The position numbers and the translations under genes are program-made. Under the pieces are notes generated by a model that did no database searches, was not told where the DNA came from, and worked only from the letters and a program-made list of their open reading frames with translations. Below are positions 3,001 to 20,733 of a stretch of 21,049 nt of DNA, piece after piece. This DNA comes from a virus: positions 1-21,049 of the IMG/VR virus record IMGVR_UViG_3300031951_001435; one strand, given 5' to 3'. The stretch's first letter is position 1, and each line of letters begins with the position of its first letter.

Positions 3001-3077
3001 TACAGTGTAAATATAATACGAAAAAGTGACATATGACAATTTTTTTGCAATTATTTTTGCCAAAGTTATTAACAATT
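3001..3077. repeat. Promoter-cassette direct repeat, copy A (partner 5932-6005)
   Basis: About 75 bases starting TACAGTGTAAATATAATACG and ending GTTATTAACAATT are repeated at 5932-6005 with one substitution and a one-base length difference in an A/T run. The upstream end supplies the stop codon of the gene before it (TAA at 3069-3071). A third, more diverged copy at 1675-1732 lacks the GTTATTAAC end. Confidence 0.85.
3007..3039 (-). promoter_or_regulatory. Bacteroidota-type promoter P2 for the DUF932-like gene
   Basis: TTG at 3037-3039, 21 bases, TATATTTAC at 3007-3015, as in P1 and P3. A direct repeat TGACA-TA-TGACA (plus strand, 3027-3038) overlaps the -33 region and could be an operator. 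The leader to the ATG at 2931 is long, roughly 70 bases. Confidence 0.75.
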
Positions 3078-3473
3078 TAGGTAATTGGCAATCTGAGCCA
3101 CCACTGAAGGCTCCATTTTGGGATCATTCCACTTCCGGTTCAATCCGGAGGGATGCGGAACCTGCAAATGTTCGATCTTCTGGCTCTGACACCACTTCGA
3201 TGAGATCAAGCCCAGGCAAATCACCTTCTCGTAGTTTGCAACCGACCATCTTTCTAGCAGGATCTCTTTCAGTCTTGGTTTTGCTCCAGCCTCTTCAGAA
3301 CAGTTGCGCCAATCATACTCCTCTTCGTTATAGCCTAGAGATTCCATCCAACGTTTTACTCGTTGAATTGTTTTCGAGGCCTCTCTTGAACCAGCAAAAC
3401 CTGGAGATTGACCAAGTACCAGGATCCTATTGTCTGGTATTGCGTCTGGGCTATTTGGGAAGCGATTACGCAA
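3069..3473 (-). CDS. Short uracil-DNA glycosylase superfamily protein (134 aa)
   Basis: A 134-residue protein resembling the uracil-DNA glycosylase fold, which removes uracil or mispaired bases. Seen: motif A-like ILVLGQSPGF at 17-26, where GQSPG stands in for GQDPY of family 1, and motif B-like HPSGLNRKW at 107-115, where HPSG stands in for HPSP. Between them is VICLG (85-89), a plausible core strand. It is shorter than typical UDGs, so it may be a minimal or non-catalytic member. The only start preceding motif A is a TTG at 3471-3473, directly after an in-frame stop and overlapping the amidotransferase stop by 8 nt; translation is therefore probably coupled. Its stop lies inside the promoter-cassette repeat. 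Superfamily assignment is moderate; activity is uncertain. Confidence 0.65.
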   Translation of the reverse strand: MRNRFPNSPDAIPDNRILVLGQSPGFAGSREASKTIQRVKRWMESLGYNEEEYDWRNCSEEAGAKPRLKEILLERWSVANYEKVICLGLISSKWCQSQKIEHLQVPHPSGLNRKWNDPKMEPSVVAQIANYLNC

Positions 3474-4074
3474 CTTTCAACCTGTCTAAAGGATAACTAT
3501 TGTCTGCAGATTCCATGCGTTCTGGATGCCATTGAACAGCCCAGATTTTACGCTGTATGTCTTCGAATGCTTCCGGAATATAACCACAACCAAAAGAGAG
3601 ATGCGTTACCGTAAAGTTCTTTGCTACAGTTTCACAATACTGATGGTGTCTACTGTTGACTTGTTGCATGTTGTTGTTCAAGTCCATCACCCAATGGTAT
3701 TGTGAGATTCTTTCGCTATGATCTACATCTTCGGTAAAGTCATCACTTCGGTGATCTTCGACAATTGAGTCCACAATGCTTGAGACCTTACCGCCAAAGA
3801 AGTGGTTTAAGACCTGCATTCCACGACAAACACCGATGATCGGTTGATCCGCGTCTAAAGCCATCTGGATCCACTCTAACTCGCGTTTATCTCTGGCAGG
3901 ATTAACACCCAAGTCTGCACCTCCACATAGTAGAAGAGGCCCAGAAATGTCCTGGGCACCTTCTTCTAGGATTACCGCAGAAAAACCATTAGACTCTACC
4001 CACTTGATGTAAGTGTCGAGCTCTTCTTGGCCTTTAGGCGGGGCTATTAGGATATACTTTGGTTGATCCGACAT
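3466..4074 (-). CDS. Class I glutamine amidotransferase, peptidase C26/PuuD-like
   Basis: I start it at the ATG 4072-4074 (MSDQPKYILIAPP), giving 202 residues; the longer frame to 4182 only adds sequence overlapping the preceding gene. Seen: LLLCGGADLGVNP at 47-59 (oxyanion-side glycine motif), the nucleophile elbow GVCRGMQ with C83, NSRHHQ at 140-145, and WAVQWHPE with H183 and E185 completing the triad. NSRHHQ and the overall length fit gamma-glutamyl hydrolases of the PuuD type, which cleave gamma-glutamyl amides; a stand-alone amidotransferase domain giving ammonia to a partner synthetase is the alternative. It overlaps the upstream 74-aa gene by 41 nt and the downstream UDG-like gene by 8 nt. 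The phage role is unknown. Confidence 0.75.
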   Translation of the reverse strand: MSDQPKYILIAPPKGQEELDTYIKWVESNGFSAVILEEGAQDISGPLLLCGGADLGVNPARDKRELEWIQMALDADQPIIGVCRGMQVLNHFFGGKVSSIVDSIVEDHRSDDFTEDVDHSERISQYHWVMDLNNNMQQVNSRHHQYCETVAKNFTVTHLSFGCGYIPEAFEDIQRKIWAVQWHPERMESADNSYPLDRLKVA

Positions 4075-4258
4075 ATATCGCAATGATTTCTTGTTTATTG
4101 CCTTCATTAAGAATCTTATTAATGTAAGCGTTGGTGTTTTTGATGTTTGTATACTCAACACTGTGCTTTGAGTATTGCACAATTACAGTAGAACCTCCTT
4201 CAGTTTTTGAAAGTGGATTTGTACGCATGTGCTCGGTTGGTTTATAGTGTGTGCTCAT
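4034..4258 (-). CDS. Conserved small phage protein (74 aa), unknown function
   Basis: Seventy-four residues from an ATG at 4256-4258, with an in-frame ATG ten codons later as an alternative. Seen: a disordered polar start, then STVIVQYSKHSVEYTNIKN, a helix NAYINKILNEGNKQ, and a final strand EIIAIYVGST. The strand-strand-helix-strand pattern suggests a small folded domain. I recognise no family with confidence. It lies 5 nt after the 189-aa gene and overlaps the amidotransferase start by 41 nt, which supports a coupled operon. Confidence 0.6.
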   Translation of the reverse strand: MSTHYKPTEHMRTNPLSKTEGGSTVIVQYSKHSVEYTNIKNTNAYINKILNEGNKQEIIAIYVGSTKVYPNSPA

Positions 4259-6167: not shown

Positions 6168-6476
6168 TTATTGTACAGTCTGGTTCGAATTGCTGGTACT
6201 TGCCACACCAGTGTGAGTTTGGCAATAAGTGATCCAAGGTTGATTTGGATAGGGCACGCCTGGCATATAAGGTGATGGCATCGGTGTTGGTGGATATGCC
6301 GGAAAACTTGGTGTTGGTGGTGTATATGGTGGAGTTGGCATAACCGGAGCATCTGGTGCCATTAAGGTCATTGCCTCTTCAACAGTAATATGTTTCTCAT
6401 CAAGCAAACGTTGAATGATGTCTGCCTTTGATGGTTTAAAATTATAAGTGATCTGAGTTGTGCTTGTGTTTTCCAT
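6168..6476 (-). CDS. Proline-rich small protein (102 aa)
   Basis: The frame is open to 6620, but that extension crosses the tRNA and its terminator, so the start is the ATG at 6474-6476 (MENTSTTQITYNF). Residues 1-40 form a small helical head with KADIIQRLLDEKHITVEEAMTLM, resembling a short helical segment often seen in phage proteins. Residues 45-80 are a Pro/Tyr/Met-rich low-complexity stretch built on PTPPYTPP, YPPTPMPSP and YMPGVPYP; the tail is Ser/Thr/Gln-rich. The low-complexity part suggests an extended or sticky linker. It follows the tRNA terminator, and I see no clear promoter of its own. Function unknown. Confidence 0.6.
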   Translation of the reverse strand: MENTSTTQITYNFKPSKADIIQRLLDEKHITVEEAMTLMAPDAPVMPTPPYTPPTPSFPAYPPTPMPSPYMPGVPYPNQPWITYCQTHTGVASTSNSNQTVQ

Positions 6477-6511
6477 GTTGATTATAATTGCAGATGGATT
6501 GTTTGTTTCAA

Positions 6512-6539
6512 AAAAAAGAGCACCGAAGTGCTCTTTTTG
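6512..6539 (-). terminator. Terminator downstream of tRNA-Ser
   Basis: AAAAGAGCAC (6528-6537 on the minus strand) pairs with GTGCTCTTTT (6514-6523) across a C(TTCG)G tetraloop, followed by further T on the minus strand. It begins within three bases of the tRNA 3' end. The A/T flanks make it symmetrical, so it could also act on the plus strand. Confidence 0.85.
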
Positions 6540-6626
6540 CGGAGGCTCAGGGATTCGAACCCCGGTTACAGTTTCCCGTAAAACAGTTTTCAAGACTGTC
6601 GCATTCGACCGCTCTGCCAAACCTCC
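6540..6626 (-). tRNA. tRNA-Ser (anticodon TGA)
   Basis: An 87-base class II tRNA. The acceptor GGAGGTT (6620-6626) pairs with AGCCTCC (6541-6547), with G as discriminator at 6540. The anticodon arm is ACAGT-CTTGAAA-ACTGT, giving anticodon TGA for UCA/UCG-type serine codons. A long variable arm with a TTAC/GTAA stem, typical of tRNA-Ser, follows, then the T arm with GGTTCGAATCC. The 3' CCA is not encoded (C, A, A follow the discriminator), so it needs a CCA-adding enzyme. An exact late-type motif lies 24 bases upstream and a terminator directly after, so it looks like a self-contained transcription unit. Phage tRNAs typically compensate for codon-use differences or host tRNA cleavage. Confidence 0.95.
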
Positions 6627-8216: not shown

Positions 8217-11141
8217 TTAACCGAAGATACCACCGCCATTAACTTTGACACCGGTGCGAGTCAATGTTGTTTGTAGTGATTTGATTGCAGCAACTACGTC
8301 ATTACCACCTCCACCAAGATCCATTGGGCCAGGGTTTTTAGTGAAGTTACCTTCTTCATCCACGGAACCTTCAGGTGTACCTTGTCCTTCAAGATATTTG
8401 TCAAAGATGTTACCAAGTTCTTGAATGGCTCCAATTAAGTTATCGCCAAGTTCTCTGATTGCACCTTCGCCACCCTTAGAAGAAAGATAACTTAACGCTT
8501 TAATCATCTCGGTAGTCTTATCCATACTAACCTGGTTGATTAACTGAGTTGAACGTGAGATACTCTTATAAGCTTTTGCAATACGTTCTAGTGCTGCAGC
8601 CTGTTTGTCAAATGAAGATTCACTTAAGACCTTCACGAAATTTGTAGCTGCTTTAACAGACGTCAAAGGTACTTTATTACCAATGTTGTACAAAGATTTA
8701 GAAATGCTTTCCATTGGCCACCATAGAGCCTGGATTTTACCAAGATCGATTTCTTTCAGGCCGATGCCGAATTCCTCAGCACCTTCACCTGCGTCTTCAC
8801 CATAATCGACAAAACCCTTAAGGATTTCACCAATTGTTACACCAGCACTACCAGCCATTACGATTGCACTAGCTGCTCTACCAAATCCTTCTAGGATCGG
8901 TACAGTTTCAGCAATACCTTGGCGCATACTAACGATAGTTTCTAAAATCTCTAAAGGTCCTTTCGACTTTTCACCACCAAAGAATGAAGTGATACCATCA
9001 ATAAATTCTGAAGCTGCATTACCCAGTGCTGAAAGTACACCGCCCGCTGCAAGACCTGCTGTAGCTCCAGCTAATAACAATAAGGCCATAGAGATAGCAC
9101 CAATACCAATTGCTAATGGAATCAGGTTTTCAATACCAATCTCATCTTTTAATCTTACCAAGATGTCGATCATCTTATTGATTGGTACTGTGATTAAGTT
9201 AGAGATGTTGTCTGCAATAGAACCAAGATCTGGTAAGAAGTTAAAGATCCAAGCAATAGCCAAGATTGCCACAGCAACGATAATTGCTCCAACTGCAGCA
9301 ATTGCAATTGCGACGATGCCGGCACCACCTCCCATAACTTTACCTAAAATAGCAAGTACTCCACCAAATGAACCAATTGCCAAAGCAGCTTGCGCTGTCC
9401 AATCTAATGGAGGTGAGACAAAGTTACCAGGTAGGAGTGTGAATACCCATGCTACTAAGAAGATAGCTATTGATAGGACAACAGTTACCATTAATGCTTT
9501 TAATAGATCAGTTGTCGATAAGTTGAATTTATTAACTAGGACTGCAATTAGTGCAAATGAGATACCAAACATTAGGAGTGCAACTCCAATCTTAAATGAC
9601 CACATAAAGTCTGGGCCATTCCAAGTATCTGGTAGATGTGTAAACATCCATGCAACACCTAGGATTGCTAAGGCCATGATAACCAGTGCAGCTCCGGCCA
9701 ATAACATCTCTGCGATTGATGCTCCTTGCATTGCTCTAAGGATTAAGGCATAACTAAATGCAAATGCCACCATTGCAAGACCTACAGTTACCGACCACAT
9801 TAAAGGAGGCATATGTGCCAGCATTTCATTCGGGTCTGGTAGCATCATTAAGATCCATGCAGCTCCAACAATACCAGCTGCCATTACAGCAAGAGCAAGA
9901 CCTGCTAAGAGTACCATACCGACTCCTTGCATGTTCGCTTTAATACCTGCGTTGTCTAGGGCTCTAATGATTAATCCCATCGCAAGCGCAACTGGAATCA
10001 AACTAAGACCAACAAGAATTGCAGTTATAAAATGAGCTGCAGTTAAATTTGTATTGATTAGTTGTAGTACATAAGACGCTGCAACTAAACCAGCAACACC
10101 ACCAACCATTACTAACATTGCAAGCCCAACCATCTTAACACCCTCCATGCCACGCATGTGTTTGCTTTTAGCCATGGTAGCCATGATTTGAGAAAGTGAA
10201 AATGCCAAAGGTATCATGATGATTGCAATTCCAAGTGCAGCTAAAAACTGAGCACCTGAAGGTACAGCCATTAATAGTAATAAGTATGAGCTTATCGTTA
10301 ATGTTGCAACCATACCGATCAATGCAACCATACTACCACCCACTAAGCCCCAGATACCACTAGTATCTGTCATACTTGCTTCCATGCCTTCAAAACCAGC
10401 ACTTTTAGTACCAACACCCTTTGCAAGTTGTGCTGCAATTAATGAGAATGCATATCCAAGTGGCACAAACAAAGCTCCAATAAACAAGGCTGTAGCCAAT
10501 TGTACCAATGAAGGTGTAGCCATTAAAGTTAATAAGTAAGATCCGATCACTACAATCGATAACATTCCTAGTAAACCTACTAGGGCTCCAGCAACTCCTA
10601 AGAAGCCACCTTTATTTGTCATTGACTTTGAGGATCCTTCTTTGTCCGTATTCTCCTCTAGTTTCGAACCAAAGAAAGCATCTCCAATTTTTACAAAAGC
10701 CGGTGTAACCAGCATTATAAGACCTGCAATTGCCAATGCTGTAACAATTTGCATTGGTGAGATCGGTGTAACAGTACTTAATATAAGTGAGGCTCCTACA
10801 ATTGCTATCGAGATACCAATCACCATAGCAGCCATTCCAGCCGTATCTTTTAGTGCTTTAAATTTACTAGCATCTCCAAGTAGAGCTTTATCTCTGTTAC
10901 TATCCTCGTCTTTCCTATTCTTCGTTGCATTTCTACCAAAGAACTGCTTGTTCTGTTGGATCAGTAACTGTTTGATGTCACCTAAAAGGGCTGTTTGATT
11001 TTTAATTTCTTCTCCAACGTTATATGTGTTGTCCCATCGCCAAAGAATTGCTTCCATGGAAGTAAGTGCACGGGTCTGTTCTGCTGCAGAACTACCCAGC
11101 TTGGTTAATGGACTTAATAAAACTTGTAGAATGTTATTCAC
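8217..11141 (-). CDS. Membrane-repeat protein in tape-measure position (974 aa)
   Basis: The protein starts with GTG (11139-11141) right after an in-frame stop; the next ATG is 28 codons on. Residues 1-95 are helical and polar. Residues about 100-700 contain roughly eight degenerate tandem units of 65-80 residues, each with a paired hydrophobic hairpin; units end in patterns such as SYLLxLMAxPS, AWILMMLPD, AWMFTHLPD and AWIFNFLPD. Residues 700-974 are helical and amphipathic (ITSFFGGEK, LIGAIQELGNIFDKY) with a glycine-rich end. Its place after the tube and gp26-like genes matches T4 gene 29. Tape measures set tail length and often carry membrane segments used in DNA ejection; at about 1.5 angstrom per residue the tail would be near 145 nm. 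The repeats are unusual enough that a separate ejection or membrane protein remains possible. Confidence 0.65.
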   Translation of the reverse strand: MNNILQVLLSPLTKLGSSAAEQTRALTSMEAILWRWDNTYNVGEEIKNQTALLGDIKQLLIQQNKQFFGRNATKNRKDEDSNRDKALLGDASKFKALKDTAGMAAMVIGISIAIVGASLILSTVTPISPMQIVTALAIAGLIMLVTPAFVKIGDAFFGSKLEENTDKEGSSKSMTNKGGFLGVAGALVGLLGMLSIVVIGSYLLTLMATPSLVQLATALFIGALFVPLGYAFSLIAAQLAKGVGTKSAGFEGMEASMTDTSGIWGLVGGSMVALIGMVATLTISSYLLLLMAVPSGAQFLAALGIAIIMIPLAFSLSQIMATMAKSKHMRGMEGVKMVGLAMLVMVGGVAGLVAASYVLQLINTNLTAAHFITAILVGLSLIPVALAMGLIIRALDNAGIKANMQGVGMVLLAGLALAVMAAGIVGAAWILMMLPDPNEMLAHMPPLMWSVTVGLAMVAFAFSYALILRAMQGASIAEMLLAGAALVIMALAILGVAWMFTHLPDTWNGPDFMWSFKIGVALLMFGISFALIAVLVNKFNLSTTDLLKALMVTVVLSIAIFLVAWVFTLLPGNFVSPPLDWTAQAALAIGSFGGVLAILGKVMGGGAGIVAIAIAAVGAIIVAVAILAIAWIFNFLPDLGSIADNISNLITVPINKMIDILVRLKDEIGIENLIPLAIGIGAISMALLLLAGATAGLAAGGVLSALGNAASEFIDGITSFFGGEKSKGPLEILETIVSMRQGIAETVPILEGFGRAASAIVMAGSAGVTIGEILKGFVDYGEDAGEGAEEFGIGLKEIDLGKIQALWWPMESISKSLYNIGNKVPLTSVKAATNFVKVLSESSFDKQAAALERIAKAYKSISRSTQLINQVSMDKTTEMIKALSYLSSKGGEGAIRELGDNLIGAIQELGNIFDKYLEGQGTPEGSVDEEGNFTKNPGPMDLGGGGNDVVAAIKSLQTTLTRTGVKVNGGGIFG

Positions 11142-11175: not shown

Positions 11176-11184
11176 CTATATATC
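11176..11184 (-). promoter_or_regulatory. Late-promoter-like motif (variant GATATATAG) before the 974-aa gene
   Basis: The minus strand reads GATATATAG, matching the core of AGATATATAA, directly after the perfect hairpin at 11185-11210 and 34 bases before the GTG start. It would give the tape-measure-like gene its own transcript. Confidence 0.4.
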
Positions 11185-11210
11185 AAGGGTCCCACAAAAG
11201 TGGGACCCTT
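11185..11210 (-). terminator. Perfect 11-bp hairpin between the gp51-position frame and the tape-measure gene
   Basis: AAGGGTCCCAC / GTGGGACCCTT with a four-base T loop on the minus strand. The sequence after the stem is GATATATAG, not a T-run, so standard intrinsic termination is doubtful. It may cap the upstream mRNA, act as a processing signal, or separate two late units. Confidence 0.5.
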
Positions 11211-11216
11211 AAAGTA

Positions 11217-11549
11217 TTACTTCATTCTTGGCATGTTCATGCTTGGCATCTTCGGCATACTCATGTTTGGCATCTTCATTCCTGAACGCATGCTTGACAT
11301 TGCCTCATTCTGCTGAGCATTCTGACCTTCTTGTGCCTCTTTCTCTTTCTTCAGATGTTCGATTAAGTCTTTTACGATATACCAGTATTCGTAATAGTCC
11401 ATCTCGTTCAGCTCGCTTGGCTGTATATGAAGGTGGAAATAGAGATAGAATCTAGTCTTAAAGAAGTTCTCCAGAGAGATCTTGAACAATGAAAAGAGTC
11501 TTGATCCCCCCGCGAAAGTTGATGGGGATAACCTCCTCCGAATCCCCTA
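11217..11549 (-). CDS. Frame overlapping the gp26-like gene, probably expressed by frameshift (gp51 position)
   Basis: This frame is open from the TAG at 11547-11549 down to TAA at 11217-11219, so the translatable part begins at 11546. There is no ATG until codon M30 of the short form (11400-11402); the only early start is a TTG at 11487-11489. Seen after the overlap: helical LNEMDYYEYWYIVKDLIEHLKKEKEA, then a Met/Pro repeat tail (KMPNMSMPKMPSMNMPRMK). The missing start, the 32-nt overlap with the previous frame's end and a six-G run at 11506-11511 suggest it is the C-terminal extension of the gp26-like protein, made by ribosomal shift. T4 has genes 26 and 51 in the same order before gene 29. 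As an independent TTG-started gene it would encode 90 residues. Confidence 0.6.
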
Positions 11550-12462
11550 GCATTACTTTCATTTCTGGTTGCAAACCTACTTTCATTTGTTCAGCTAATC
11601 TATAAATTAGCATATATTTTTTTGGATCCCATCCGTTCATTTCGATTTCAAGTTCGAAAAGTCTCTTTTGGTTAAAGAATCTCCAGTCACCGCCTAGGTA
11701 AGGTGCAACTTGGATTAGAGATTGGTCAATGTTTAGGCCTTGTTCTCTACGCTCTCTAATGTACTTAGTAACCTCTTGCATCAAACCGATTGTTGGTGGT
11801 CTCATAACGATCTCACCGTGAGTTCTGGTTTGTACTGCGAATGCACGCATGTTTGGGTCATAGTACTTTTCGATTTCCGCTGGAATTGAGAAGTATTGGA
11901 AGTATTCTCTTCTGATCTCAACTTCATGCTTCTTACCATCTTTAGTTTTGTGCTCAACTTTTAAGTTAGCTTCTGGTTCAGGGAACGTAAGGTCTCTAAT
12001 TGATAAGATTAAGATAAATCTATCCTCTTCACAAAGATCTTTAAAAGAGATTCTAGTTGATCTTGAAGAAACTTGAGTACAAGATTCTACAATAGCATTC
12101 AACTTCTCATCGATGTCCAATAAATTGGTTTCATCCATAGTAGAGAAGTGGCGAATCTCAGCAACTTTTGCAGCTCTGATTTTAATCGAAACATCACCTG
12201 GATAGAATCTACCTCTAGAAGGTAAAGAATCCACTGGTAGTTCGTGCCATCCTAATACTACATCTGGTTTCTCAGCCTTTGCAGGACCAAAGTTCTCGAT
12301 GTTAACTCTGCCTAAGCCATTTGCAGCAATAGTCTCTTCCATTGCTTCAGCTTCTACATTTACTGGCTCCACGTTAGCAGCTTCTGCCATTCTACGTGCG
12401 TTTTCTTTTTCTTCAAGGAATTTAGCCATTTCCTCTTCGTTGTAATTGTTCTCTTCTGACAT
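11458..12462 (-). CDS. T4 gp26-like tail assembly/baseplate-hub protein
   Basis: A 334-residue soluble protein. Residues 1-65 are an acidic, Ala/Glu/Asn-rich disordered lead. From about 68 the pattern is VLGWHELPVDSLPSRGRFYPGDVSIKIRAAKVAEIRHFSTM, with LPSRGRFY followed by a basic strand, as in T4 gp26-type proteins. It continues with LNAIVESC, EEDRFILILSIRDLTF and a long C-terminal helical part. In T4, gp26 works with gp51 and gp28/29 in hub and tape-measure assembly. Position between the tail-tube and tape-measure genes agrees. It starts one nucleotide after the stop of the ribbon-helix-helix gene. Its end overlaps the gp51-position frame, where a frameshift is suspected. Alternative: a generic tail assembly chaperone of the lambda-G type. 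Confidence 0.65.
   Translation of the reverse strand: MSEENNYNEEEMAKFLEEKENARRMAEAANVEPVNVEAEAMEETIAANGLGRVNIENFGPAKAEKPDVVLGWHELPVDSLPSRGRFYPGDVSIKIRAAKVAEIRHFSTMDETNLLDIDEKLNAIVESCTQVSSRSTRISFKDLCEEDRFILILSIRDLTFPEPEANLKVEHKTKDGKKHEVEIRREYFQYFSIPAEIEKYYDPNMRAFAVQTRTHGEIVMRPPTIGLMQEVTKYIRERREQGLNIDQSLIQVAPYLGGDWRFFNQKRLFELEIEMNGWDPKKYMLIYRLAEQMKVGLQPEMKVMLGDSEEVIPINFRGGIKTLFIVQDLSGELL
11506..11511 (-). other. Candidate programmed-frameshift slip site (run of six G)
   Basis: In the gp26-like frame the run is read CGC GGG GGG ATC. A -2 (or +1) slip on the G-run gives GGA TCA AGA in the overlapping frame, which joins 319 residues to about 95 more (about 415 in all). The run forms the 3' arm of a small inverted repeat, ATCCCC (minus strand, 11524-11529) with GGGGAT, and a purine-rich GGAGGAGG lies about 20 bases upstream. 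Confidence 0.45.
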
Positions 12463-12463
12463 A

Positions 12464-12685
12464 TTATTTTGATTTTAGGTTTTTGAGATTTTGTTTTACG
12501 TATGATTTTTGCTCTACAGTTCTTTTTGATAGATCGTCTTTAATTAAATTTCTAATGAATGCACTAACTGATACCGGTCTGGATTCTGTTTCTAAAGCCT
12601 CATTCAATATAATCCTATTAATCTGGTTAACCTCATCGTCGGTTAAAAGAACTTGGAGTTTTCTAGTTAGTTTACTATTTTCCAT
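12464..12685 (-). CDS. Ribbon-helix-helix-like protein in the tail cluster (73 aa)
   Basis: A 73-residue basic protein. Seen: a strand RKLQVLLTDDE (8-18), a helix VNQINRIILNEALETE (19-34), a turn RPVSVS, a second helix AFIRNLIKDDLSKR, then a Lys/Asn-rich tail. Strand-helix-turn-helix with this size and spacing is the Arc/CopG ribbon-helix-helix layout; such dimers bind operator DNA in the major groove through the strand. It lies after a terminator that ends the tube transcript and one nucleotide before the gp26-like gene. An AT-rich ATATAATATATTATC stretch at 12701-12715 may be its promoter. Inferred role: local late-gene regulator. A structural role cannot be excluded. Confidence 0.6.
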   Translation of the reverse strand: MENSKLTRKLQVLLTDDEVNQINRIILNEALETESRPVSVSAFIRNLIKDDLSKRTVEQKSYVKQNLKNLKSK

Positions 12686-18786: not shown

Positions 18787-20733
18787 TTAGCGCGGCTGGT
18801 TGTACTTTCTCAAGCCAATCGAAGGAACTGCATTGTCAATAATATATGCTAGGTTGTTGTCTCTAACAATATACTGCTGCAGCATATTTAAGTGTTGATC
18901 CTGGCCAATTGTCTTCTTGAAGAGTCTGATGTTTGTAACATCCATCTTACCTGGCATTAAGGTCCAGTTCTTATTCACTGACCAACCGTATTGGTTTGCA
19001 AAACTCTTTACTTCAGAATTAAATAGCGTTAAGGTTTGTGCGTTACTTGTAGCAGTTGATCTATTACTATTAGGATCTAATTTATATAAATGTACTGAGA
19101 TTTCACTGAACACATTGTTAAGGTTAAAGACTAAACCATACCAAGTGTCATTGGTCAAAGCAACTTGATTGCTTAATGTGTGTAAGTCTCCGTTGATTCT
19201 AACTTTAGTTGCATTCGGTGTTAAGATGATTTGTAAACCCTCTCCATTCTGCCAAGCATCAACTAGGATCTGTTCTGTACCACTAGTAAATCTAGGTCTA
19301 AACCAGGCTGTAAATGCCAGGTTCTTATTTACTGCAAGTTCAGACATTTGTTTGTAAATTAATGCATTCACTCCTTGGTCTAGGATTGAATCCATCTTAT
19401 AATAGTTCTTTGCAACTACAGTCCATCTATTTCTAATCTCACCATCAATTATATCAAGTTGATCGTGGATTCTAAGTCTGGTGCCATCTGATACCTCACG
19501 ATAGACTGTTTGGTACTGTTCTGGTTTCGTGATCTTAGTGTACTCTTCTTGAATCTCTTCACCAAAGATCTCCTCAATACCGACAGTTAGATCATCAACT
19601 TCTTGTTCGATTAATGTATCTGTATGGATGCTTGAAGCTCGGTCCTCGAATTTTTTCAGCATCACTTTCCAATAGGTTAAGTTCAAGTTGAACTCATCAG
19701 CATATGAAACTGCGTTTACCTCATACATTCTATTAATTAATGGAAAGTATAAGTAGTCTCTAACTCTAGGTTTCGGTCCGATACCAAATGCTGCTTCAAA
19801 TTGAGTCTTGGTAATATGCACTTCAAAATCTTCAAAGCCAATGCCAAAAATATCGTAGTTTAATTGTTGTGTTGGCAACTCATTGTCTGGTACCATTACC
19901 TTGAATTCACCTTGTTCTACTACATTATAGAGAGAATACTCCATCAAGATTACATCTCTACTTCTTTGATCTGGTTCAACTCTAAAGTATTTTACAGTGT
20001 GGCCCCAAATTGCAGTTGAAACGTCACTCAATTGACGATACATTGCTGCTGGTTTCTTTAAGGCATAAGGATTGTATACTGGTGCTGAACATGCAATAAT
20101 ATTTGCACAACCATCAAAAGCATAAGGCTCCGTACAGTCATCACAGAATTGTGGACAAACTACAATCGTACCTTCTGAAGTTTCTAACTCAAATGTAATT
20201 GAGAGTAGAGTTAAACTTCTTGCAGCTGATAATCTGTCAACTACCAGTTTAAGATCTAACCAAAGTGGTTTTTCAGGATCGAATGTCAATGCAAATAGAT
20301 CACCTGGATTCTCGTCCTTATTTAAAGGTCTTAACTCACTCATCTCAGCTCCATCGCTATAGACTGCTGATTGAGACCAACGGTACTCATAAGTGAATTT
20401 ATTGTTATTGTCAGGTAGTAGATAGAACTTAAGTCCTTCTGCTGTAAAAGGTGCAGACTCAACCATTGTGAAGGTTGAAGTATTAATAACCTGGTCAACT
20501 GTGTAAACTTGGTTACCTACGATAAATTGATCTCCAGACTCAAGTGTGAATGGATGGTTGACACATTGTACTTGCTTGGTAGCATTGACAAAATTTAATC
20601 TGCCTGTAGTTTGAGGTGCTGTTACACCAACCACTATATCGTAGTCTAATACTCGGATTGCGTTGTTATAAGGCTCTTTTAGCCTTGCCATAACAACATC
20701 CCCTATCTCGTTTGCTGTAAAATTTTTAACCAT
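18787..20733 (-). CDS. Probable neck protein (T4 gp14-like region) with lectin-like C-terminal domain
   Basis: A 648-residue structural protein. Residues 1-110 are beta-rich. Residues 190-215 hold a cysteine cluster (C193, C197, C200, C209, C215) that could bind metal. Residues 290-365 (YDIFGIGFEDFEVHITKTQFEAAFG, YLYFPLINRMYEVNAV, LTYWKVMLKKFEDR) resemble the conserved part of T4 gp14-type neck proteins as I remember them. Residues about 460-600 (LAFTAWFRPRF, GLQIILTPN, WYGLVFNLNN, ISVHLYKLD) form the strand pattern of LamG/concanavalin-like jelly rolls. T4 gp14 has 256 residues, so this is a neck core with additions. Position before terS/terL fits T4 13-14-15-16-17. The LamG-type domain could decorate the neck or bind surface glycans. 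An exact late motif precedes it. Confidence 0.55.
   Translation of the reverse strand: MVKNFTANEIGDVVMARLKEPYNNAIRVLDYDIVVGVTAPQTTGRLNFVNATKQVQCVNHPFTLESGDQFIVGNQVYTVDQVINTSTFTMVESAPFTAEGLKFYLLPDNNNKFTYEYRWSQSAVYSDGAEMSELRPLNKDENPGDLFALTFDPEKPLWLDLKLVVDRLSAARSLTLLSITFELETSEGTIVVCPQFCDDCTEPYAFDGCANIIACSAPVYNPYALKKPAAMYRQLSDVSTAIWGHTVKYFRVEPDQRSRDVILMEYSLYNVVEQGEFKVMVPDNELPTQQLNYDIFGIGFEDFEVHITKTQFEAAFGIGPKPRVRDYLYFPLINRMYEVNAVSYADEFNLNLTYWKVMLKKFEDRASSIHTDTLIEQEVDDLTVGIEEIFGEEIQEEYTKITKPEQYQTVYREVSDGTRLRIHDQLDIIDGEIRNRWTVVAKNYYKMDSILDQGVNALIYKQMSELAVNKNLAFTAWFRPRFTSGTEQILVDAWQNGEGLQIILTPNATKVRINGDLHTLSNQVALTNDTWYGLVFNLNNVFSEISVHLYKLDPNSNRSTATSNAQTLTLFNSEVKSFANQYGWSVNKNWTLMPGKMDVTNIRLFKKTIGQDQHLNMLQQYIVRDNNLAYIIDNAVPSIGLRKYNQPR

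Follow-up and report, generated by a model that had tools for sequence, protein, structure and literature searches.

A 21,049-base stretch of viral DNA, here called the window, carries among its tail genes two overlapping reading frames, the second of which has no evident start of its own. How do ribosomes reach that second frame, and what is its product? The surrounding gene order is of the T4 type: neck protein, gp16-position protein, terminase, sheath, tube, a 73-residue protein, a gp26-like gene, the extension encoded by the second frame, and a 974-residue tape-measure candidate. All features lie on the minus strand unless noted. The tape-measure candidate (8217-11141) is hydrophobic, begins with GTG directly downstream of the extension and is assigned on position and composition only, since profile searches returned no family match for it.

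Overlapping frames ahead of a tape-measure candidate

The gp26-like gene (11458-12462) encodes 334 residues related to PF12322 (T4_baseplate), a relationship found in profile, hhalign and predicted-structure matches. The PF12322 profile scores 21 bits (E 3e-4), below the curated cut-off of 24.5 bits, and the protein is therefore described as a relative of the family and not filed as a member. Its own family matches the cyanophage gp26 family by hhalign (E 1e-6 over 213 columns) and T4 gp26 directly, though weakly (E 4e-5 over 67 columns). The predicted fold matches baseplate hub subunits and hub assembly proteins of many myoviruses in BFVD, themselves predictions, with E values down to 1e-10; a fold search of the PDB with the gp26 model gave no match at E < 0.1, that is, nothing among solved structures. 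Homology, gene position and analogy with G/GT proteins suggest that this short form is a G-like tail assembly chaperone.

At the junction the 334-codon frame reads ATC AAC TTT CGC GGG GGG ATC, with six Gs at 11511-11506. The second frame lies in +1 (equivalently −2) relative to it. Its open stretch begins at 11546 and ends with a stop at 11217, and the first ATG comes no earlier than about codon 50. These details agree with the initial annotation, which had also proposed a frameshift joining the gp26-like and gp51-like frames into a product of about 414-415 residues. Such a fusion is probable and fits the position of a tail assembly chaperone.

About 45% of synonymous recodings also leave the +1 frame open, so that openness by itself is weak evidence; it was rejected as proof and conservation was used instead. 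A query with the gp26-like protein retrieved Lak megaphages and other huge uncultured phages, Sphingomonas phage PAU, Flavobacterium phage MaF61, Chryseobacterium phages MA9V-1/2 and Tenacibaculum phages PTm1/5, and further loci came from three IMG/VR scans. In 176 of the 178 loci with a readable gp26 stop, a set that includes the best 80 of 357 and the best 80 of 186 from the last two scans, the second frame is in +1 and open for at least 19 codons upstream of that stop; the exceptions are L144 and L147. Counts of loci and junctions here and below take related sequences as separate. Past the gp26 stop the +1 frame runs for a median of 74 more codons, and short continuations are contig ends, L144 and L147, and a TAG in Lak-B5, which is presumably read as Gln. 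The Lak phages have been described as alternatively coded (PMC8346664). Beyond the gp26 stop the frame is under strong purifying selection, with pS 0.68 and pN 0.05 between the window and L001. The overlap of the two frames is therefore real and not a product of chance. Two marks of a G/GT locus are thus found here: overlapping frames upstream of a tape measure gene, recognized in this case by position only, with the second lacking its own start, and an offset and overlap kept in relatives under constraint on both frames.

Homopolymers are error-prone, and a wrong base count in the six-G run would turn the two frames into one uninterrupted gene, a caution raised when the locus was first annotated. 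That explanation is refuted, because relatives with a different sequence at the run keep the same offset, which recurs in those 176 independently assembled loci, mostly without a homopolymer.

The extension (11217-11513) is 98 residues long, with three predicted helices followed by a flexible tail rich in Met, Pro and Lys. Profile comparison makes it a homologue of the T4 gp51 C-terminus. The link runs through the cyanophage extensions and the PHROGs, since hhalign applied directly to the single sequence of T4 gp51 gave no match. The extension matches phrog_634 ('baseplate hub assembly catalyst') in 8 of 12 members and the cyanophage gp51-like extension at E 3e-10; the cyanophage extension in turn matches phrog_634 in 10 of 10 members and residues 200-243 of T4 gp51, its C-terminus, at E 0.0015. 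Pa5oct-type matches to the extension query lie inside a homing endonuclease on the opposite strand and were rejected. If one base (C 11514) is skipped, so that TTTC is read as one step, the predicted long form is a gp26-gp51 fusion of 414 residues (11217-12462). The gp26-like domain and the extension were modelled separately, and the proposed shift site falls directly after the last, C-terminal β-hairpin of the predicted gp26 fold, at the domain edge.

The probable site of the frame transition

The junctions compared number 72 non-redundant sequences, 70 of them alignable, with 35 in the window clade and 26 in the L017 clade. An in-frame TTT followed by C occurs in 64 of the 70, the window included, where it lies just upstream of the G-run, at 11514-11517 (0-frame AAC TTT CGC; next +1 codon GCG, 11513-11511). 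An in-frame UUU plus C at the frame transition is characteristic of the UUU_C class of +1 sites.

Each wobble base of the first frame also serves as the middle base of a +1 codon, and a collapse of wobble variation is therefore a signature of dual coding. From the region upstream to the stretch between motif and stop, synonymous differences fall from 0.45 to 0.15 in the window clade and from 0.43 to 0.05 in the L017 clade, and over the last 13 gp26 codons they are 0.04 and 0.03, respectively. In the L017 clade the codon that precedes TTT CCC still shows a wobble difference of 0.51, and from TTT on the values are 0, 0, 0. In the window clade the wobble positions are nearly frozen at codon −15 and from codon −12 to the stop; the +1 frame of this clade is only weakly conserved from UUU to codon −15, and the exact shift site consequently rests in part on the L017 clade. 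Across these alignments, the dual-coding signature begins at the Phe (TTT) codon and runs to the gp26 stop.

The codon that would wait in the A site is usually rare: CGC, CGT or CCC. CGC makes up 16 of 24 window-clade Arg codons at this site versus 15 of 918 elsewhere, where AGA accounts for 730, and CCC follows TTT in 32 junctions versus 18 of 761 Pro codons elsewhere. The exception is CAA, which is not rare, in five junctions. The motif itself also has misfits. Six of the 70 junctions, forming one subclade (L128, L130, L134, L138, L161, L163), carry UUC_CCA in place of UUU_C; the constraint still starts at the same codon there, though +1 re-pairing would be poor, and another mechanism may operate. 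Further misfits at this place are MA9V, PTm1 and L018, with UUU_C placed elsewhere or replaced in the first two and in one huge phage.

The initial annotation had placed the shift on the six-G run (11506-11511), just downstream of UUU_C, as a −2 or a +1 slip. GGG could re-pair in the window and in L001, but these are the only two of the 72 junctions to have the run: its position reads CGT GGC GGC GTC in L002, CGT GAC GGC ATC in L006 and CCC AAC GGA GCC in the L017 clade, all with the same frames, and few codons of the overlap vary as much as those of the run (synonymous difference 0.47-0.58). The alignment of relatives initially suggested as a check thus upholds the frame offset and not the run, and a shift there is very improbable. 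The −2 direction is likewise disfavoured. A Mu-type shift calls for a conserved site that allows −2 re-pairing, which a run confined to the window and L001 does not supply, and the conserved TTT C gives no good −2 re-pairing and favours +1. A nearly invariant CTT TTC or ATT TTC within the overlap (about 11496-11491 in the window) could instead serve as the site, through a −2 slip of UUC to UUU or a +1 slip of CUU. This is quite unlikely, as the motif is not universal (ATA TTC in Lak phages, CTA TTC in L145, ATC TTT in L133), the +1-frame constraint starts earlier (Ser at codon −15 in 34 of 35 window-clade junctions; from codon −21 in the L017 clade), and dual coding of LF/LFS already predicts its conservation. 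A prfB-like shift at the gp26 stop itself (CUU_UAA), suggested by the conserved CTT CTT TAA, was rejected because the residues that the +1 frame encodes ahead of the stop are conserved, and T4 gp51 keeps them.

The second frame might also be a separate gene, reached without any frameshift by translational coupling from an internal TTG (11487-11489), the only start-like codon near its head. In the window clade 23 of 35 junctions have TTG here, and in the L017 clade 25 of 26 have ATG, while Cygsa01 and K469, which are T4-like and outside the clade, have an ATG overlapping the gp26 stop. The +1 frame, however, is constrained from about 30 nt upstream of these start codons, including an [ILV]F before the start. 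Many lineages encode the Leu with non-start codons, and TTA, CTG, TGC, AAC and TAC are also seen at the TTG position; five window-clade junctions contain no ATG, GTG or TTG anywhere in the overlap. Moreover, the Shine-Dalgarno-like sequence of the locus is about 43 nt from the TTG, and in T4 gp51 a gp26-like domain is fused to the extension. The TTG is present, as first reported, but it is not conserved as a start codon and was rejected as the start of the second frame, and independent initiation is on the whole unlikely.

A Shine-Dalgarno-like element presented by a hairpin

The purine-rich element initially noted about 20 bases before the G-run is confirmed as a Shine-Dalgarno-like GGAGGAGG (11532-11539), 20 nt before the run and 14 nt upstream of UUU. 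It lies in the loop of a hairpin, GGGGAT-TCGGAGGAGGTT-ATCCCC (11524-11547), and the loop, with its GAGGAGG, presents the element. The initial annotation had paired ATCCCC (11529-11524) with the G-run; this pairing is possible, but the one conserved in relatives is with GGGGAT at 11547-11542.

GAGG or GGAG precedes the site in 68 of 70 junctions, compared with a background of 7.3%, and the Glu codon at the element is GAG, almost never GAA. The hairpin is conserved as well. Its equivalent in the L017 clade has 98% of its stem paired and shows eight double changes, all at one pair; none of 500 shuffles reaches this level. The case is weaker for the window group, in which 95.5% of pairs are kept in 11 relatives through UA/CG/UG exchange and 42 of 500 shuffles do as well. 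A direct covariation test on one pair of columns gave P = 4e-6, uncorrected for relatedness.

Bacterial Shine-Dalgarno elements stimulate +1 shifts at a spacing of 3 nt and −1 shifts at 9-14 nt (PMC5009743). The spacing between element and shift site is 11-23 nt here, mostly 14-18 nt, and not the roughly 3 nt upstream of the shift codon that is typical of prfB. The element might act through a pause, or by way of its hairpin folding again behind the ribosome.

Proposed short and long chaperones in T4 and its relatives

The best explanation of the locus, which is drawn from sequence comparison throughout and is probably correct, is a +1 slip at UUU_C that yields short (334-residue) and long (414-residue) forms of a tail assembly chaperone. 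Most ribosomes would finish the gp26-like gene at its own stop, yielding the G-like form. A smaller share would slip one base forward at AAC_UUU_CGC, the P-site peptidyl-tRNA-Phe re-pairing from UUU to UUC as CGC, a rare codon, stands undecoded in the A site. The shifted ribosomes would then read 98 more codons in +1 and produce a GT-like form with a helical gp51 C-terminal domain. The likely client of both forms is the tape measure protein, whose gene follows directly, and the likely role of the extension is to bring in tube or hub subunits.

A close parallel in arrangement is lambda gpG/gpGT, also two products of one gene that lies between tube and tape measure, where the long form arises by a frameshift near the 3' end and the offset is conserved while the sequence diverges. 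In contrast to the −1 shift of lambda, the shift proposed here is +1 and the proteins belong to the gp26/PF12322 group. A +1 shift at TTT-CGC has been proposed for the tail chaperones of HF1-group haloviruses (PMC7230728). These viruses can be likened to the window by motif, direction and place in the tail operon alone; they are archaeal, and no GAGGAGG hairpin is described there. The PA-X product of influenza A is made at UCC_UUU_CGU, with +1 re-pairing of the Phe tRNA from UUU to UUC as the favoured mechanism (PMC3498833). It shares with the window a P-site slippery UUU_C followed by a rare Arg codon, and differs in its eukaryotic ribosome, unrelated protein, other preceding codon and lack of a Shine-Dalgarno element. 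Bacterial prfB (CUU_U, with the element 3 nt upstream) likewise combines a +1 shift with an internal Shine-Dalgarno-like sequence.

The G-T frameshift has been reviewed as conserved among long-tailed phages 'except T4' (PMC5009743). The window locus would be a G/GT tail-assembly-chaperone frameshift, of a known kind, in the very lineage that the review sets apart, and its +1 signal would be unusual. In T4 (L023, 3803-5229), PF12322 covers the length of both gp26 and gp51, whereas phrog_634, the C-terminal extension that the long form here shares, matches gp51 (at 147-246) and not gp26. Because both are full-length PF12322 proteins, these matches make gp51 a C-terminally extended paralog of gp26, and the pair apparently corresponds to the short and long forms. 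T4 keeps 26 and 51 as separate genes, as the initial annotation had it, and has no frameshift there; the same annotation was wrong to give them the order seen here, for in T4 they lie on opposite strands.

The Kyanoviridae also have a gp26 with a homologous domain and, as a short 'gp51', a homologous extension in a shifted frame, but they carry a −1 heptamer in place of the +1 site. Among cyanophage-type loci (L024, L188-L191, L197, L198-L277), T_TTT_TTY occurs in 80 of 80 non-redundant junctions, as T_TTT_TTC in 79 and T_TTT_TTT in one. It stands one to three codons before the gp26 stop, with the gp51-like extension in −1 and a Shine-Dalgarno-like GAGG a few codons upstream. Wobble differences at its two Phe codons are 0.00 and 0.03, versus 0.43 and 0.74 at the neighbouring codons. 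Several junctions have no nearby ATG: S-RIM2, P-RSM1 and, outside the cyanophages, SRB7757. The heptamer looks like a conserved, unannotated −1 frameshift. A literature search, which covered open-access papers and few of those under subscription, found no report of frameshifting in the gp26/gp51 family, this heptamer included.

The same pair of proteins thus seems to be made by a −1 shift, a +1 shift, overlapping genes (Cygsa01, K469) or duplicated genes (T4), and the arrangement, initially thought new to a T4-type tail, is widespread and not unique to this phage. It is reasonably likely that the T4-like superfamily is no exception to the G/GT rule. Its ancestor would have expressed gp26 and a gp26-gp51 fusion by frameshifting; the cyanophages would keep a −1 site, a large lineage of Bacteroidetes-type and huge phages, including Lak, would use a +1 UUU_C with the Shine-Dalgarno-like element in a hairpin, and in T4 gene duplication would have given 26 and 51. 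The data suggest that relatives of T4 do frameshift, in two directions, and that T4 has divided the short and the long chaperone between genes 26 and 51, so that an old gap in T4 tail assembly becomes directly testable. If true, this adds to the bacterial viruses a natural class of +1 signal conserved in well over a hundred contigs. Annotation would need correction too, since PAU, PTm1, MA9V, P-RSM1 and further genomes on deposit either lack the long form or start it wrongly. Public records leave the extension out or begin it late, examples being PAU gp94, MA9V1_007 and PTm1 ORF-023, with no entry in P-RSM1 (L013, L015, L016, L191 and similar).

Other features of the window may be recorded. 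A terminator-like hairpin, AAGGGTCCCAC-TTTT-GTGGGACCCTT (11185-11210), separates the extension from the tape-measure candidate; together with the TGATATATA that follows this strong stem 3' of the extension (11177-11210), it is a putative terminator or promoter. Similar hairpins with GATATATA are found in L001, L002 and L006. The 73-residue protein between the tube and gp26-like genes (12464-12685) gave no family match and by eye resembles a small DNA-binding protein of the ribbon-helix-helix kind. The neck protein (18787-20733) has a weak T4_neck-protein match and, in its C-terminal part, a weak concanavalin-like (Laminin_G_3) match. Guanylate kinase-like (1-210), formamidopyrimidine-DNA glycosylase-like (240-1076), uracil-DNA glycosylase-like (3069-3473) and class-I glutamine amidotransferase-like (3466-4182) genes are also present, as is a tRNA-Ser (tga) at 6539-6626, which is overlapped by a listed ORF of 150 residues (6168-6620).
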